Notes under the pieces: generated by a model | The model's input: only the letters and a program-made list of their open reading frames with translations | The model's database searches: none | Told to the model about the DNA's origin: nothing | From: Candidatus Zymogenaceae bacterium | Lineage (GTDB): Bacteria > Desulfobacterota > Zymogenia > Zymogenales > Zymogenaceae | DNA length: 64,000 nt | Reading direction: 5' to 3' | Assembly (NCBI GenBank): GCA_016933535.1 | Contig: JAFGAS010000086.1 | Coordinates: 124,001-188,000, forward strand | Position numbers and translations under genes: made by a program | In this document: positions 43,997 to 53,265 of the stretch, in pieces | Numbering within the stretch: position 1 is the stretch's first letter | Layout: each line of letters starts with the position of its first letter

Positions 43997-45406
43997 ATGA
44001 GCAAAATAGACGATAGATTCTTTAATCGGTTCATAACGCGACGCGACGCCATTAAGGGCATCGGTATGGTGTCGGCCGCATCACTCGCGGGAATCGGGCT
44101 TTTAGATCCTGCTCGCGCCGTCTCCGCGACAGGAGGGCTCCCCAACATTATCTTTATCCTTTCCGACGACCACCGCTGGGACCATATGGGGTGTATGGGG
44201 CACCCCTTTATACAGACCCCCGCCATGGACAGGCTTGCCTCGGAGGGAATACTCTTCGAGAACGCTTTTGTCACCACGTCCCTGTGCAGCCCTTCCCGGG
44301 CTTCGTTTCTAACCGGGACATACGCCCACACCCACGGAGTAAAGAACAACATCACGCCCTGGGAGGGATCCAACATCACCTTTCTGGAGACGATGAAGGT
44401 CCGGGGCTATGACACCGCCTTTATCGGCAAATGGCACATGCCGGGCAATATCCCGACGATCTCGGCCATAGATGAATTCATCACCTTTACCGCTCAGGGC
44501 GGCCAGGGACAATACTTCAACTGCCCCATCATCGTTAACGGCAGACAGGAACCGTCCCGTAAGGCATATATCACCGAGGAATTGACCGATCGCGCCATCG
44601 AATTTATTGAATCCCGGGCGGCCAGGCCCTTCTGTCTCTACCTTTCCCACAAGGCGGTACACCACCAATTTTTGCCGCCCCCGGACCTCGCGGGGATCTA
44701 TGACGACGTCGACCTGAAATTGCCCGAGGAATTCGATCCGTGGATCACCGCCACCAGGGGAAATCTCCTCTACGGCGTCCTCGGACCATTGCCGACACAC
44801 TACCGAAATTACTGTGCGGCACTGACCGCCCTGGATCGAGAAATAGGCAGGCTCCTGGCTCGACTCGATGAACTTTCGATCGCCGACAATACCGTTGTGG
44901 TCTACGCCGGGGACAACGGCTACTTCTGGGGAGAGCACAACCTCGTGGACAAGCGCTGGGCCTACGAGGAATCGATGAGGATACCGTTTATCGTTCGCTG
45001 GCCGTCACTCATCTCCGATCCCGGCCGTCGGGCACAACAAATGGTCCTCAATGTGGATCTCGCCCCCACCCTCTCGGACCTGACGGGAAGCCCGATGTCC
45101 GACCGGTTCGAAGGATCCAGCATCCTGCCGGTGTTGAAATCGACGGCCGCTTCCGGGAGGGACGCGTGGTTCTACGAATATTTTGCCGATTACCCGTATC
45201 GGGTCCCGCCCCAGTACGCGGTGCGAACCCAAACGCACAAGTACATGGAATTCATGACCGGCAGGAAACCGGAGCTCTACGATATAGCCCATGATCCCGG
45301 AGAGCGGCAAAACCTTTACGGGACCGATCGGGGCCGCGAAATCCAGAAAGAGCTCAAGGATCAAATGGAATGGTTTAAGGAAAGGTACCGGTTAAGCGGC
45401 GTGTAG
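43997..45406 (+). CDS. Tat-exported type I sulfatase
   Basis: A 469-residue alkaline-phosphatase-superfamily sulfatase. The N-terminus has a twin-arginine motif (TRRDAIK) followed by a hydrophobic stretch, indicating Tat export. PNIIFILSDDHRWDHMG gives the first metal Asp pair, and Cys97 in SLCSPSRASFLTG is the CxPxR site that is converted to formylglycine. GDNGYFWGEHNLVDKRWAYE supplies further metal and substrate residues. It hydrolyses sulfate esters outside the cytoplasm. No formylglycine-generating enzyme gene is seen in the window. The substrate is unknown. Confidence 0.94.
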   Translation: MSKIDDRFFNRFITRRDAIKGIGMVSAASLAGIGLLDPARAVSATGGLPNIIFILSDDHRWDHMGCMGHPFIQTPAMDRLASEGILFENAFVTTSLCSPSRASFLTGTYAHTHGVKNNITPWEGSNITFLETMKVRGYDTAFIGKWHMPGNIPTISAIDEFITFTAQGGQGQYFNCPIIVNGRQEPSRKAYITEELTDRAIEFIESRAARPFCLYLSHKAVHHQFLPPPDLAGIYDDVDLKLPEEFDPWITATRGNLLYGVLGPLPTHYRNYCAALTALDREIGRLLARLDELSIADNTVVVYAGDNGYFWGEHNLVDKRWAYEESMRIPFIVRWPSLISDPGRRAQQMVLNVDLAPTLSDLTGSPMSDRFEGSSILPVLKSTAASGRDAWFYEYFADYPYRVPPQYAVRTQTHKYMEFMTGRKPELYDIAHDPGERQNLYGTDRGREIQKELKDQMEWFKERYRLSGV

Positions 45407-45626: not shown

Positions 45627-46541
45627 ATGCGCGCCAAGCCCCTGGACATCGTATTACTCTTCTTTTACGGCCTTTTTATAGACACCATCGGCTACCTGCC
45701 CTTGCGGGTCATACGGTTTGGATGCCGGCTTGTCTTTCTTCTCCTTTATCCGCTCGTCGGCCTCCTTTTCGGCCTTCGGCGTCGTATTGCCCGAAATATA
45801 ACCGCGGCCTACGGGAAGTCCCTGACGAGCCGGGAAACAAAGGCTATCGCCCGCAGCGTCATCTATAACCAGCTTCTCTTTTTCATCGAGCTCTTCTTCT
45901 ATTACCACAAAAAGAACCAAGAAGTATTGAGAGAATCGGTGTCGATCGAGGGAATTGAGAACCTGGCCGCCGCCAGGAAGGGTTCAAAAGGGGTGATCGG
46001 AGTGAGTGCCCACCTCGGTAACTTCCAGCTCATGATGCTCAGGCTCTCCATTGAGGACAGCCAATTCGCCACACTGATTAAGAACCCAAAATCCAAGGTC
46101 ATATCCGACGCATGGCATAGATACATGGATGACTTCGGCCTCAGGACCATTATGATGAAAAATCGTGTCTCGGCGACAAAAGAGATCATCAGGGAGTTGA
46201 GACGATCCGCCTTTATCATGTTTGTTGCCGACGAGTATACACGGCGGAGCCCGCACGTCGTTACCTTCTTCGGGAAAAATACTTCCATGGCTTCGGGGCC
46301 GGCACAGCTTTCCCTGAAGATGGGCATACCGTTGCTGCCGTGTTTCATCATCCGAGAAGATACGGGCCGCTACCGGATAATCATAGAAAGGGCGATCGAG
46401 ATAGCCGCTTCCGGAGACTATGAGGCCGATTGCCTGACCCTTACACAGAAGCGTATTGATATACTCGAGAAATATATCAGGCGCTACGCCGATCAGTGGT
46501 TATGGACGCAGTCTCGTTGGAAGAAGAACCGATTGAAATAA
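45627..46541 (+). CDS. LpxL/HtrB-like lysophospholipid acyltransferase with HX4Q motif
   Basis: A 304-residue protein of the lipid A lauroyl/myristoyl acyltransferase family. An N-terminal membrane helix (IVLLFFYGLFIDTIGYLPL) is followed by RRRIARNITAAYG, the catalytic-region GVIGVSAHLGNFQLMMLRLS, FIMFVADEYTRR and MASGPAQLSLKMGIPLLPCF. The usual catalytic pair is His-X4-Glu/Asp; here it reads His129-LGNF-Gln134, so the acid is replaced by an amide. It may be inactive, have changed chemistry, or be a related branch. It faces the same way as the next acyltransferase, which has its own promoter. Confidence 0.85.
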   Translation: MRAKPLDIVLLFFYGLFIDTIGYLPLRVIRFGCRLVFLLLYPLVGLLFGLRRRIARNITAAYGKSLTSRETKAIARSVIYNQLLFFIELFFYYHKKNQEVLRESVSIEGIENLAAARKGSKGVIGVSAHLGNFQLMMLRLSIEDSQFATLIKNPKSKVISDAWHRYMDDFGLRTIMMKNRVSATKEIIRELRRSAFIMFVADEYTRRSPHVVTFFGKNTSMASGPAQLSLKMGIPLLPCFIIREDTGRYRIIIERAIEIAASGDYEADCLTLTQKRIDILEKYIRRYADQWLWTQSRWKKNRLK

Positions 46542-46699: not shown

Positions 46700-47671
46700 G
46701 TGATCAATAGCGAACATCTCGATAATATCAACCTGCGCAGCTACTCCTTTGTTCAGGTGCTGCTCGGCAGGCTGCTCCTCATCCCGAACTACCACATCTT
46801 TTCCCGGGTCAAAATCATTATAGAGAACTACGAAAATATACCGAAGGACGAAACGGTCATCTTCGCGCTCAACCATACGGACCGATACAATTACTGGCCC
46901 TTTCAGTACAAGATGTGGCGCCAGAGCAAGGGAAAACTTCCCTATACCACAACATGGGTAAAGGGAGAGTATTACGGTAATATCCTGATGCGCAAGTTTT
47001 TTGACTGGACCAATAACATTCCCGTCCCCTCCAGAGGATACCTGATCAGAGAGGATTTCAGAAGCATCCTCAATGAGAAGATATCCCAAATGGAATACCG
47101 TATTCTTCGGGATTACGCGAGCGGGCAGACCACGCTTAAAAAGATCGGCGAAGAAATGACCGATAATATTAGAAAGGTCATTAACTATCCCCGAAAAGTG
47201 CTATCCGGCATCGAGGTCCCCTATTCCGACTACATCGATTCCTATTATCGCCAGCTCATGGCACGGGTCGCGGAGATCAACTTCAGGGCACTTTTTGACA
47301 AGAACCTGAATGTCATCATCTTCCCCGAGGGAACCCGCTCCCTTACGCTCGGTACCGGCAAGACCGGCATCGCCCATCTCGCCCTCAAGTCAGGCAAAAA
47401 AGTTGTTCCGGTCGGATGCAACGGCTCTGACCGTGTTTATCGGGGAAACCTCCCCTGGGCCAAGAGCGGGACGATCGTCTATCGTGTTGGAACACCGATC
47501 GATCCCCGTGAGATCATTGGAGACATCGACCGGTCGTTTATCCCATTCTCGAACGAGGCAGAAGTCGAGCTTAAAGATGAATTCCGTGAATTCACCCAGT
47601 TTGTCATGGAGCGTATTAATGAGCTTCTCGACGACCACTATCGGTCCCTATCCCCGGTAACGGTGGTCTGA
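46700..47671 (+). CDS. PlsC-family acyltransferase with altered NHX4D motif
   Basis: A 323-residue protein with an acyltransferase fold. Motif I is FALNHTDRYNYWPFQYKMW: His59 is followed at the usual acid position by Asn64, while an Asp sits two residues after the His. Motif III FPEGTRS (208-214) and PVGCNGSDR are present. The spacing of about 150 residues between motifs I and III is longer than normal for 1-acylglycerol-3-phosphate acyltransferases. GGAGG precedes the GTG start. It likely acylates a lipid, but the altered motif makes the chemistry uncertain. Confidence 0.8.
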   Translation: MINSEHLDNINLRSYSFVQVLLGRLLLIPNYHIFSRVKIIIENYENIPKDETVIFALNHTDRYNYWPFQYKMWRQSKGKLPYTTTWVKGEYYGNILMRKFFDWTNNIPVPSRGYLIREDFRSILNEKISQMEYRILRDYASGQTTLKKIGEEMTDNIRKVINYPRKVLSGIEVPYSDYIDSYYRQLMARVAEINFRALFDKNLNVIIFPEGTRSLTLGTGKTGIAHLALKSGKKVVPVGCNGSDRVYRGNLPWAKSGTIVYRVGTPIDPREIIGDIDRSFIPFSNEAEVELKDEFREFTQFVMERINELLDDHYRSLSPVTVV

Positions 47672-50938: not shown

Positions 50939-52027
50939 TTACGAACGTATCGTTAAGAGCAGATAGCCACCGGCGGTGGCGAAAAGGACATTGGCAATCC
51001 AGGCGGCGACAATCGGCGGGAGCGTTCCCCCGTGGCCCAACGCAATGCAGAGCGAATGGATGACCCAATAAAGATAGCTTATCGCAAACGCGGCCACTAC
51101 CCCCGTCGCTAGTCCCCCTCGCCTTCCTACCATGAGTGCAAAGGGTGTGGCCACCAACGCCAGGATCAGACATGCAAGGGGATAGGTTATCTTACCCTGC
51201 AAGTCCACCCGGTATCGGGTCGTGTCATAGCCGTTTTTATCGAGATTATTTATGTACGTCGAGAGCTCCCGGTACGACATCTTTTCGGTGCCCTTTTCAA
51301 ACACGATCTTGAAGTCGTCCGGCGTCTCCTTGATGGATAGATATCGTATCGGATACTTCATGGTGGAAAAAGAACCCGTCCCGGCAAAATCGTTCTCGAT
51401 AACGTTATAAAACACCCAGCGGCTGCCCTTCCATATCGCCTTGGCGGCGACGATCCGCTCCTTCAACTGGAACCTGTCGTCAAACGTATAGATCGTTATG
51501 CCTTCGATTGTATTATCCTGTGGCATAAACCGATCGATATAGTAGATCGTATTTTCGTCCCGCACCCATATCTTGTCAAGCCGGTATTCCGCACCGGGAC
51601 TGACCTTCTTTTTTTCTATCTTTACTTTCCTAACGTATTCGTTATAACTGTTTGCCTGCGGTACGACGTATTCGTTCCCGAGATAGGACATGATGCTCAG
51701 AATCGCCGCCAGAATCAGGGCGGGCCTGATAATAAACATGTGGCTTACACCACTTGACATCATTGCGATTAATTCAAGGTTTCTGCCCATAAGACCGATC
51801 GAGACAAGGGTAGCCAGCATTACGGCCATTGGAAGTGTCAGGAACAGGACGTAGGGTATTTTAGTCACGAAGTAGACAACGATAATATCAAAGGACACGG
51901 GATTCTCGATGATAGTTCCTATGTTCTCGAATATATCTACAATCAAAAAGAGCATCACGAATGCCCCAATTGAAAGCAGCAAGTGCAGGAAAAATTGTCT
52001 TACAATATATTTCGTCAGTATTTTCAT
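50939..52027 (-). CDS. lptG: LPS export permease LptG
   Basis: A 362-residue YjgP/YjgQ permease with six membrane segments, three on each side of a periplasmic beta-jellyroll domain (residues about 130-270). It begins MKILTKYIVRQFFLHLLLSI and contains YVLFLTLPMAVMLATLVSIG and LELIAMMSSGVSHMFIIRPA. With LptF and LptB it extracts LPS from the inner membrane. The ATG at 52027 overlaps the lptF stop (ATGA). An upstream in-frame extension lies inside lptF and is rejected. Confidence 0.95.
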   Translation of the reverse strand: MKILTKYIVRQFFLHLLLSIGAFVMLFLIVDIFENIGTIIENPVSFDIIVVYFVTKIPYVLFLTLPMAVMLATLVSIGLMGRNLELIAMMSSGVSHMFIIRPALILAAILSIMSYLGNEYVVPQANSYNEYVRKVKIEKKKVSPGAEYRLDKIWVRDENTIYYIDRFMPQDNTIEGITIYTFDDRFQLKERIVAAKAIWKGSRWVFYNVIENDFAGTGSFSTMKYPIRYLSIKETPDDFKIVFEKGTEKMSYRELSTYINNLDKNGYDTTRYRVDLQGKITYPLACLILALVATPFALMVGRRGGLATGVVAAFAISYLYWVIHSLCIALGHGGTLPPIVAAWIANVLFATAGGYLLLTIRS

Positions 52028-53265
52028 TGGGACAGCCGTGCTATAATTCTCGTCATGTATTCGGATATAGTACTGTAGAGCGTCGTAATAAAGACCGGCT
52101 TTTCTCTCGCCGCCTTTATGAAGAGGTATAGCCCCGATCCACCAAGGACTACGTTTCCGAACCACAGGGAAAATAGGGGCGGAATCCAGCCGTTCTTTCC
52201 GAGAACCTCGCCCGCGGCCATGAAAACGTAGTAGGTAAAAATGACCAGGGTCACTAGGACGACATTTCCCGACTTTCCCTTCGGGTTGATCTGAACGCTC
52301 AGCGGAATACCGAGTATCATAAAGACGATGCAGGCAAACGGTATTGCGAATATCTTCGATATCTCAACCTGCTTGGCTCGTATATCCGACGCGACATTTT
52401 CCACGAGTAACCGGTTCTGCGACGACGGATGCCGTTCGTATTCCTCTTCCAACTCTGCGAGGTTTTGCCTCAGCCCGTAGACGGAAGTCCTCAATTCCTC
52501 GAGCGTCATCTCTCGATTTCTCTTGGTAACCTTTTTTCCCCCACCCTCGCCGAAAAGGTTGAGGTTCATGCTGTAATTGTTAAAAACAATGATTTGATCT
52601 GAATCGGTGTATTTATTGGAAAGGAGAATGGACCCGTTACTCAAGCTGATCGTGAGGTACTGGCTCGCCTCGTCGGAGGTGAGGTACCCTTCCTGCGCGA
52701 TGATAGTGATGGCCCGGTCTACATTAGTATCATCAAAGACCAGGATACCATAGAGGTGATTCGATCGTATCGGTATGCGGTCGACGTATATTATCCTTCC
52801 CGCCAGATCATTAAAGACCTTTTCCTCTATGCCGACGTTGATTTGCGTACGCAGGACTGTAACGATAAATTTCCTGAGATGGAAATTGCTGGTCGGCGTC
52901 ACAAAGATCGTGAGGTACGATGTCAAAACCCAGGCGAAGACCGAAAAGATAAGCACGGGACGCAAGAGCTGATAGAGACTTACCCCTGATGACTTGAGGG
53001 CGATTATCTCGTAATCGTAGGAAGCCCGACCGAACGTAAGTATAACGGCCAGCGCCAACGACATCGGGATGGTAAAGACCAGGAAGAAGGGAAGCATCAT
53101 CCCGAAAAGTTTAACAATAATATATATTGACATGCCCTTGTTGACGATCAGGTCGGCCAACTGGAAGGTTCTTCCGGTCAACAGGACGAAGCTGAAGATA
53201 ATTATACCGACGAAAAAATTTGTAATTATTTCAAACAGGAGATATTTGGAGATAGTGCTCTGCAT
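52024..53265 (-). CDS. lptF: LPS export permease LptF
   Basis: A 413-residue permease of the same family, starting MQSTISKYLLFEIITNFFVG. The coupling-helix region is ALAVILTFGRASYDYEIIAL followed by KSSGVSLYQLLRPV. There is a periplasmic jellyroll and a C-terminal helix trio (ILGIPLSVQINPKGKSGNVV). LptF and LptG form the transmembrane channel for LPS. Together they show that the organism builds an LPS-bearing outer membrane. A promoter lies immediately upstream. Confidence 0.95.
   Translation of the reverse strand: MQSTISKYLLFEIITNFFVGIIIFSFVLLTGRTFQLADLIVNKGMSIYIIVKLFGMMLPFFLVFTIPMSLALAVILTFGRASYDYEIIALKSSGVSLYQLLRPVLIFSVFAWVLTSYLTIFVTPTSNFHLRKFIVTVLRTQINVGIEEKVFNDLAGRIIYVDRIPIRSNHLYGILVFDDTNVDRAITIIAQEGYLTSDEASQYLTISLSNGSILLSNKYTDSDQIIVFNNYSMNLNLFGEGGGKKVTKRNREMTLEELRTSVYGLRQNLAELEEEYERHPSSQNRLLVENVASDIRAKQVEISKIFAIPFACIVFMILGIPLSVQINPKGKSGNVVLVTLVIFTYYVFMAAGEVLGKNGWIPPLFSLWFGNVVLGGSGLYLFIKAAREKPVFITTLYSTISEYMTRIIARLSQ

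Follow-up and report, generated by a model that had tools for sequence, protein, structure and literature searches.

The HX4D motif serves as the signature of a large acyltransferase superfamily. According to one report (PMC4792965), the histidine acts in GPAT-like enzymes as the general base and the HX4D aspartate as its relay partner; in PatA, the relay is instead formed by H126 and E200, the HX4D aspartate being merely structural, and HtrB and MsbB are suggested to use an acid of block 3 as well. LpxJ has no HX4D at all, and a H61/D132 dyad has been proposed for it (PMC6148475). By analogy, PatA and LpxJ may be taken as precedents for a displaced relay acid, and because the H+5 acid of PatA is only structural, conservation alone is no proof of catalysis.

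Here, we analyzed a stretch of 64,000 nucleotides from a Candidatus Zymogenaceae bacterium (hereafter the window), in which a gene at positions 46700–47671 of the plus strand, with a GTG start preceded by a ribosome-binding-like GAGGAGG, encodes a protein of 323 amino acids whose motif I reads N58-H59-T60-D61-R62-Y63-N64 (46871–46891, plus strand). The original prediction had noted an Asp at the second and an Asn at the fifth position after the histidine, which is correct, and we refer to this product as the NHTDR protein. Its likeness to PlsC (PF01553; 5kym, Thermotoga maritima) comprises the predicted fold over 194 residues, the place of the catalytic histidine, the FPEGTR motif and, in the window's protein, an arginine at the putative place of motif II, but it differs in its Asp at H+2, its Asn at H+5 and a distance from motif II to motif III that is longer by about 78 residues. 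With the GPATs (GPAT1, 8e4y; plant GPAT, 1k30/1iuq), it shares the fold at Z 16–17 over 229–241 residues, yet lacks the HX4D attributed to the GPAT family in PMC4792965. The resemblance to PatA, LpxL, and LpxM (PF03279) lies in an overall fold matched at lower Z (9–12) and in the position of the PatA relay acid E200 outside HX4D; however, the displaced acid belongs to block 3 in those enzymes, whereas it stands two residues from the histidine in the NHTDR protein. LpxJ (DUF374, PF04028), for its part, is comparable as an acyltransferase without HX4D and with a proposed His/Asp dyad (PMC6148475), although its acid is 71 residues away from the histidine. At E values up to 1, PF01553 was the only Pfam family matched by the NHTDR protein, and neither PF03279 nor PF04028 was among its matches. 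In the literature on NHTDR or HX4D/NHX4D, we found no description of an NHTDR-type acyltransferase, and precedents may have been missed.

Gene layout and predicted fold

The NHTDR protein passes the gathering cut-off of PF01553 (44 bits against 23; 2.4e-11), and its AlphaFold2 model, predicted from 63 aligned sequences, reaches a mean pLDDT of 95.3 and a pTM of 0.92. Foldseek returned six matches to this model at E ≤ 0.001, namely two PlsC chains and four GPAT entries, and with VIA-align the best solved match was PlsC 5kym (Z 18.3, rmsd 3.2 over the 194 residues), followed by human GPAT1 (Z 17.3), 7zkq_T (16.1), PatA (12), and LpxM (9); the predicted fold is that of the PlsC/GPAT enzymes. In the model, a strand formed by residues 54–57 stops ahead of N58-H59 and a helix starts at residue 65. 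The sequence alignment with 5kym sets H59, without gaps, on the histidine of an NHQS stretch, a piece that is weak when taken alone (6.5 bits), and the assignment of N64 to the place of the canonical Asp comes mainly from a gapless alignment with the HX4D-bearing sister branch described below.

Downstream of motif I, a W86-x-K88-G-x-Y91 stretch (46955–46972, plus strand) is conserved in relatives and is followed by the equivalent of motif II (IPVPSRGY), where R112 occupies the motif II place in an alignment made by eye. From there to FPEGTR, the secondary structure of the model and the spacing in relatives delimit a helix-rich segment covering residues 112–206 approximately (47033–47317, plus strand), and it is here, between the motif II equivalent and FPEGTR, that the extra residues, mostly helical in the model, are located. 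Motif III, FPEGTRS, lies at 47321–47341 on the plus strand. The interval singled out initially, 46860–47350, does enclose both motif I and FPEGTRS, and the roughly 150 residues that it was said to hold between the histidine and FPEGTRS are indeed unusually many: H59 and P209 of FPEGTR are 150 residues apart, against 72 or 73 in all 30 canonical PF01553-type loci readable by pattern. These 30 are the loci fitting an HX4D-plus-PEG pattern among 49 PF01553-type loci of the same phylum or family, the other 19 being two NHTDR proteins themselves and 17 loci without a usable pattern match.

A search of the window's genome, which is 89% complete, with the whole NHTDR protein gave a single match at E ≤ 0.001. 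The same genome (G000) has 11 PF01553 matches, and at least four of them (L111, L115, L119, and L127) combine HX4D with the 72-residue spacing.

Distribution, conservation, and the sister branch

Among the matches listed for the 395 genomes of the phylum, full-length or nearly full-length NHTDR-type relatives (E ≤ 3e-46) are patchily distributed over 11 genomes, the window's own included, and the next match listed (E 1e-11) covers the FPEGTR part only. A scan of 84,980 species genomes with peptide patterns (IFA[MLV]NHTD or S[RM]GY) led to 129 confirmed relatives, 80 of which were kept; judging by their titles, these relatives come mainly from Syntrophales and other 'Deltaproteobacteria', Myxococcota, and Desulfurellales, with a few Chloroflexota. 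In a profile search of 282 Myxococcota genomes, 92 gave matches at E ≤ 1e-20, and subtracting the nine with only sister-range matches leaves 83 NHTDR carriers, a class defined by score; His59 and Asp61 are present in 82 of the 82 carriers whose motif could be read, the 83rd (G618) being a fragment that lacks the motif. Plasmids yielded only one partial match to the NHTDR protein. At the level of sequence, the motif marks a subfamily present in Desulfobacterota, Myxococcota, Desulfurellales, and some Chloroflexota, within which identity falls to 32%. In the phylogeny, the window's family forms one clade (100/100), and the phylum labels are clustered without forming single clades; because the phylum is doubtful for many genomes titled 'Deltaproteobacteria', we draw no conclusion on the history of transfers.

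The alignment of the NHTDR branch holds 177 rows (161 distinct over residues 30–301, fragments included), 81 of which stem from the 80 pattern-found loci and are partly biased toward the motif, when the other 96 were retrieved without motif selection, by whole-protein search or by a profile that itself contains the motif. His59 and Asp61 are invariant in the 175 rows covering them, and position H+5, which is never acidic in these rows, is Asn in 173, Gly in one (L011), and His in one (L217), so that motif I of strict PlsC/AGPAT enzymes is absent. Since His59 and Asp61 also occur in every one of the 94 motif-unselected rows that cover the motif (H+5 being Asn in 92, Gly in one, and His in one), the alignment indicates that the NHTDR motif is not a chance variant. 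K88 and R213 are each found in 176/176 rows, and W86, K88, and Y91 were invariant in an earlier alignment of 125 rows.

With regard to the acids that could assist His59, Asp61 is the sole one to be identical throughout the branch. The Glu210 of EGTR is replaced by Gln in 76 of 176 rows (62 of 95 motif-unselected ones) and is therefore not usable as a relay throughout the family. Position 42, a Glu in the window's protein, is acidic in 169/173 rows. The stronger statement that Asp61 is the only conserved acid had to be dropped: all 170 rows that extend as far as position 311, near the C-terminus, carry an Asp or a Glu there, which makes this position a possible second candidate for the relay partner. 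As it is acidic in 17 of 18 sister rows too, it does not track the change between Asp61 and Asp64.

This change is best seen by comparison with a sister branch of 18 distant, nearly full-length matches obtained from the Myxococcota profile search (L175–L192). These proteins have the long insert in common with the NHTDR branch and keep K88 in 18/18, and their motif I can be written N-[H/S/A]-[T/S]-[H/Q]-x-x-D, with His (14) or Gln (4) but never an acid at position 61, and Asp64 in all 18. The histidine itself is kept in 11 of them, giving a standard HX4D, and is lost to Ser or Ala in the other seven; as the Arg of FPEGTR is moreover absent from all 18 rows, some sister-branch proteins look like pseudoenzymes. 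Across the 193 motif-covering rows of both branches, none has acids at both 61 and 64 and none has an acid at neither, which suggests that the two positions are equivalent in function and that the acid was relocated from one to the other. In this respect, the sister branch is the best evidence for a relocation of the acid between 64 and 61, and it indirectly supports the idea that Asp61 reaches the histidine. In the phylogeny, this swap amounts to one deep split rather than to many independent events, and it was followed by two later changes of Asn64, to residues without an acid.

Genomic neighborhood and lipopolysaccharide genes

In all four genomes of the window's family (the window's, L002, L003/L031, apparently one record, and L004), the NHTDR gene is preceded by one LpxL-like PF03279 gene, or by two, with an HLG[NS]FQ motif; in the window, this adjoining neighbor is located at 45627–46541 on the plus strand and reads HLGNFQ. 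Two lipid acyltransferase genes thus do adjoin, as had been supposed, in the window's family. The accompanying idea of a lipid pathway specific to this lineage found no support, since carriers of the NHTDR gene belong to several phyla and its LpxL-like neighbor is not linked to it outside the family: a tblastn search (E ≤ 1e-3) of flanks of 6 kb or less at 110 loci detected relatives of the neighbor near the NHTDR gene in the window's family only. As for the suggestion that both active sites are unusual, it remains valid for the NHTDR protein, which departs from HX4D, but much less so for its neighbor. The latter is an ordinary PF03279 protein according to Pfam, and position H+5 in the aligned PF03279 copies of the family (window 45627–46541 and loci L195–L197, L199–L201, and L141–L143) is Q, L, M, V, or E, so that its Gln appears to be part of a wider drift; given, in addition, the block 3 relay acid of PatA, HtrB, and MsbB reported in PMC4792965, this Gln is less odd than it seemed. 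An Asp is found at H+73 in 20 of 20 aligned PF03279 copies and may be the counterpart of the E200 of PatA, which stands at H+74. Genomes of the window's family have 4–8 PF03279 copies each, compared with one or two per genome among eight of Syntrophales type.

Two other features of the window can be mentioned here. A sulfatase gene (43997–45406; PF00884 with SGSH_C) with a twin-arginine-like N-terminus adjoins the acyltransferase pair, and a distant relative of it (27–28%) flanks the pair, with the opposite orientation, in L141 and L143, none having been found in L142. Further along, two LptF/LptG permease genes occupy 50939–53265 on the minus strand, their listed open reading frames overlapping around 52027–52165.

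In 30 of the 90 loci examined (among which L007 and L078 represent one and the same protein), the NHTDR gene is preceded on its own strand by a kdsB relative that ends 12–201 bp away, and hldD (28 loci), a KdnA-like aminotransferase gene (24), and an Fe-ADH gene (23) are found upstream as well. Runs of trmJ-like, Fe-ADH, KdnA-like, hldD, kdsB, and NHTDR acyltransferase genes are observed at L040:1057–6930 and at similar Syntrophales-type loci. At L040, KdsB and HldD pass their NCBIfam equivalog cut-offs, and the best solved match of the aminotransferase is the Kdo8N transaminase 5k8b (1.6e-105, the next best being 1e-56); this gene run suggests the presence of 8-amino-Kdo in those bacteria. 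The Fe-ADH of the cluster, whose best solved matches are methanol dehydrogenases and lactaldehyde reductases, is at most a candidate KdnB. Outside Syntrophales and the window's family, a conserved partner gene was sought and none emerged, the neighbors being isolated TetR, MBOAT, and HEAT-repeat genes.

Lipopolysaccharide is accordingly a frequent setting of the NHTDR gene, and one may ask whether the protein, in concert with the LPS inner-core genes, catalyzes a late acylation of lipid A or of the Kdo region, in the manner of LpxL, LpxM, or LpxJ, which belong to another branch of the fold. The kdsB-centered linkage speaks for such a role, as do the LpxL-like neighbor in the window, the two LptF/LptG genes 3–6 kb away, and four NHTDR-bearing genomes (G122, G150, G264, and G400) in which LpxC, LpxK, and DUF374 are present while a PF03279 match is missing, a gap that the NHTDR protein could fill. 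However, the ten kdsB-linked loci placed in the tree make up a supported clade of their own (96/91), and the linkage may reflect a single event of operon history; besides, the eight Syntrophales-type genomes searched already own a PF03279 gene (beside lpxK in six) and DUF374 genes. LpxC is undetectable in 55 of the 83 Myxococcota carriers, and two carriers, G401 (Lujinxingia vulgaris) and G399, have no match to LpxC, LpxK, PF03279, DUF374, or the Kdo transferase domain, hence the role cannot be that of lipid A alone. A general family role as lipid A late acyltransferase was rejected on these grounds, and we regard the narrower proposal as unlikely, though the most serious of the alternatives. 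The LpxC counts (28 carriers with and 55 without a detectable match, against 110 and 89 of the other 199 Myxococcota genomes; Fisher p 0.001, ignoring kinship and genome incompleteness) serve only to show that the NHTDR gene occurs without LpxC. The overall absence of an LpxC match from 144 of 282 Myxococcota genomes, whose completeness is not given, is well above expectation.

A proposed relay and its implications

On balance, we favor, with moderate confidence, the view that the NHTDR gene encodes a membrane-associated enzyme of the PlsC/GPAT fold that is active in O-acyl transfer, that its catalytic acid has moved from H+5 to H+2, and that it acts on the cell envelope. His59 would be the general base, as in canonical enzymes, and Asp61, at H+2, would orient and charge it in replacement of the acid at H+5, when Asn64, in the canonical place of the acid, would only hold the imidazole through a hydrogen bond. 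This His59/Asn64 pairing resembles the one formed by His and Asn in papain-like proteases. Between motifs II and III, the helical insert may contribute to the acceptor pocket or to a membrane face, and the reaction would attach a fatty acyl chain to a lipid or glycolipid of the cell envelope. Given the canonical HX4D paralogues, at least four in number, encoded by the same genome, the essential step from lysophosphatidic to phosphatidic acid is probably not the task of this protein.

The same paralogues weigh against considering the NHTDR protein an ordinary lysophosphatidic acid acyltransferase, that is, a PlsC isoenzyme in which the amide at H+5 works like the acid and Asp61 merely caps a helix. 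This interpretation draws on PlsC being the nearest solved structure, on the retention of FPEGTR, and on the motif II place, which, as assigned by eye, is Arg in the window and Arg or Lys in 91 of 95 motif-unselected rows. Over the whole branch, however, the latter residue is Arg or Lys in 124 of 176 rows and non-basic in 52, with Met or other residues in many Syntrophales-type rows; to call the motif II Arg unconserved is right for those rows and fails for the motif-unselected ones. Moreover, the score against the NCBIfam model of AGP acyltransferases (TIGR00530), 35.9 bits, is well under the curated cut-off of 102.95, and the sister branch has an Asp at H+5 exactly where residue 61 is non-acidic, all of which makes an ordinary isoenzyme rather improbable. 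Finally, a catalytically dead protein, or one turned to lipid binding or regulation, is in line with the missing H+5 acid and with a wider group that seems to hold pseudoenzymes (His59 being Ser or Ala in 7 of 18 sister sequences), but it is quite improbable in view of H59 and D61 (175/175) and K88 and R213 (176/176), which are fixed across several phyla, unlike a decaying site.

To return to the relocated acid, the NHTDR family is a real, well-conserved variant of the PlsC-fold acyltransferases in which the catalytic acid likely went from H+5 to H+2. A far more speculative extension, to which we give little credence for now, is that it embodies a further, undescribed charge relay, with a His-x-Asp dyad, an Asn in the old place of the acid, and a swap between H+2 and H+5, and that it acylates an outer-membrane glycolipid beside or instead of lipid A. 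In Syntrophales, this glycolipid could be the inner core of Kdo8N type; in those Myxococcota that lack lipid A genes, it could be a substitute for LPS.

If the acid did move, the textbook HX4D active-site motif would be less fixed than assumed, and annotation based on this motif could miss NHTDR proteins or label them as dead. An acid apparently shifted within the motif in the NHTDR branch, but left in place in its sister branch, would in this regard constitute a natural experiment on how much change the relay tolerates. As the NHTDR gene is also found in genomes without a detectable LpxC, it becomes a candidate for the making of lipids in LPS-free diderm bacteria.
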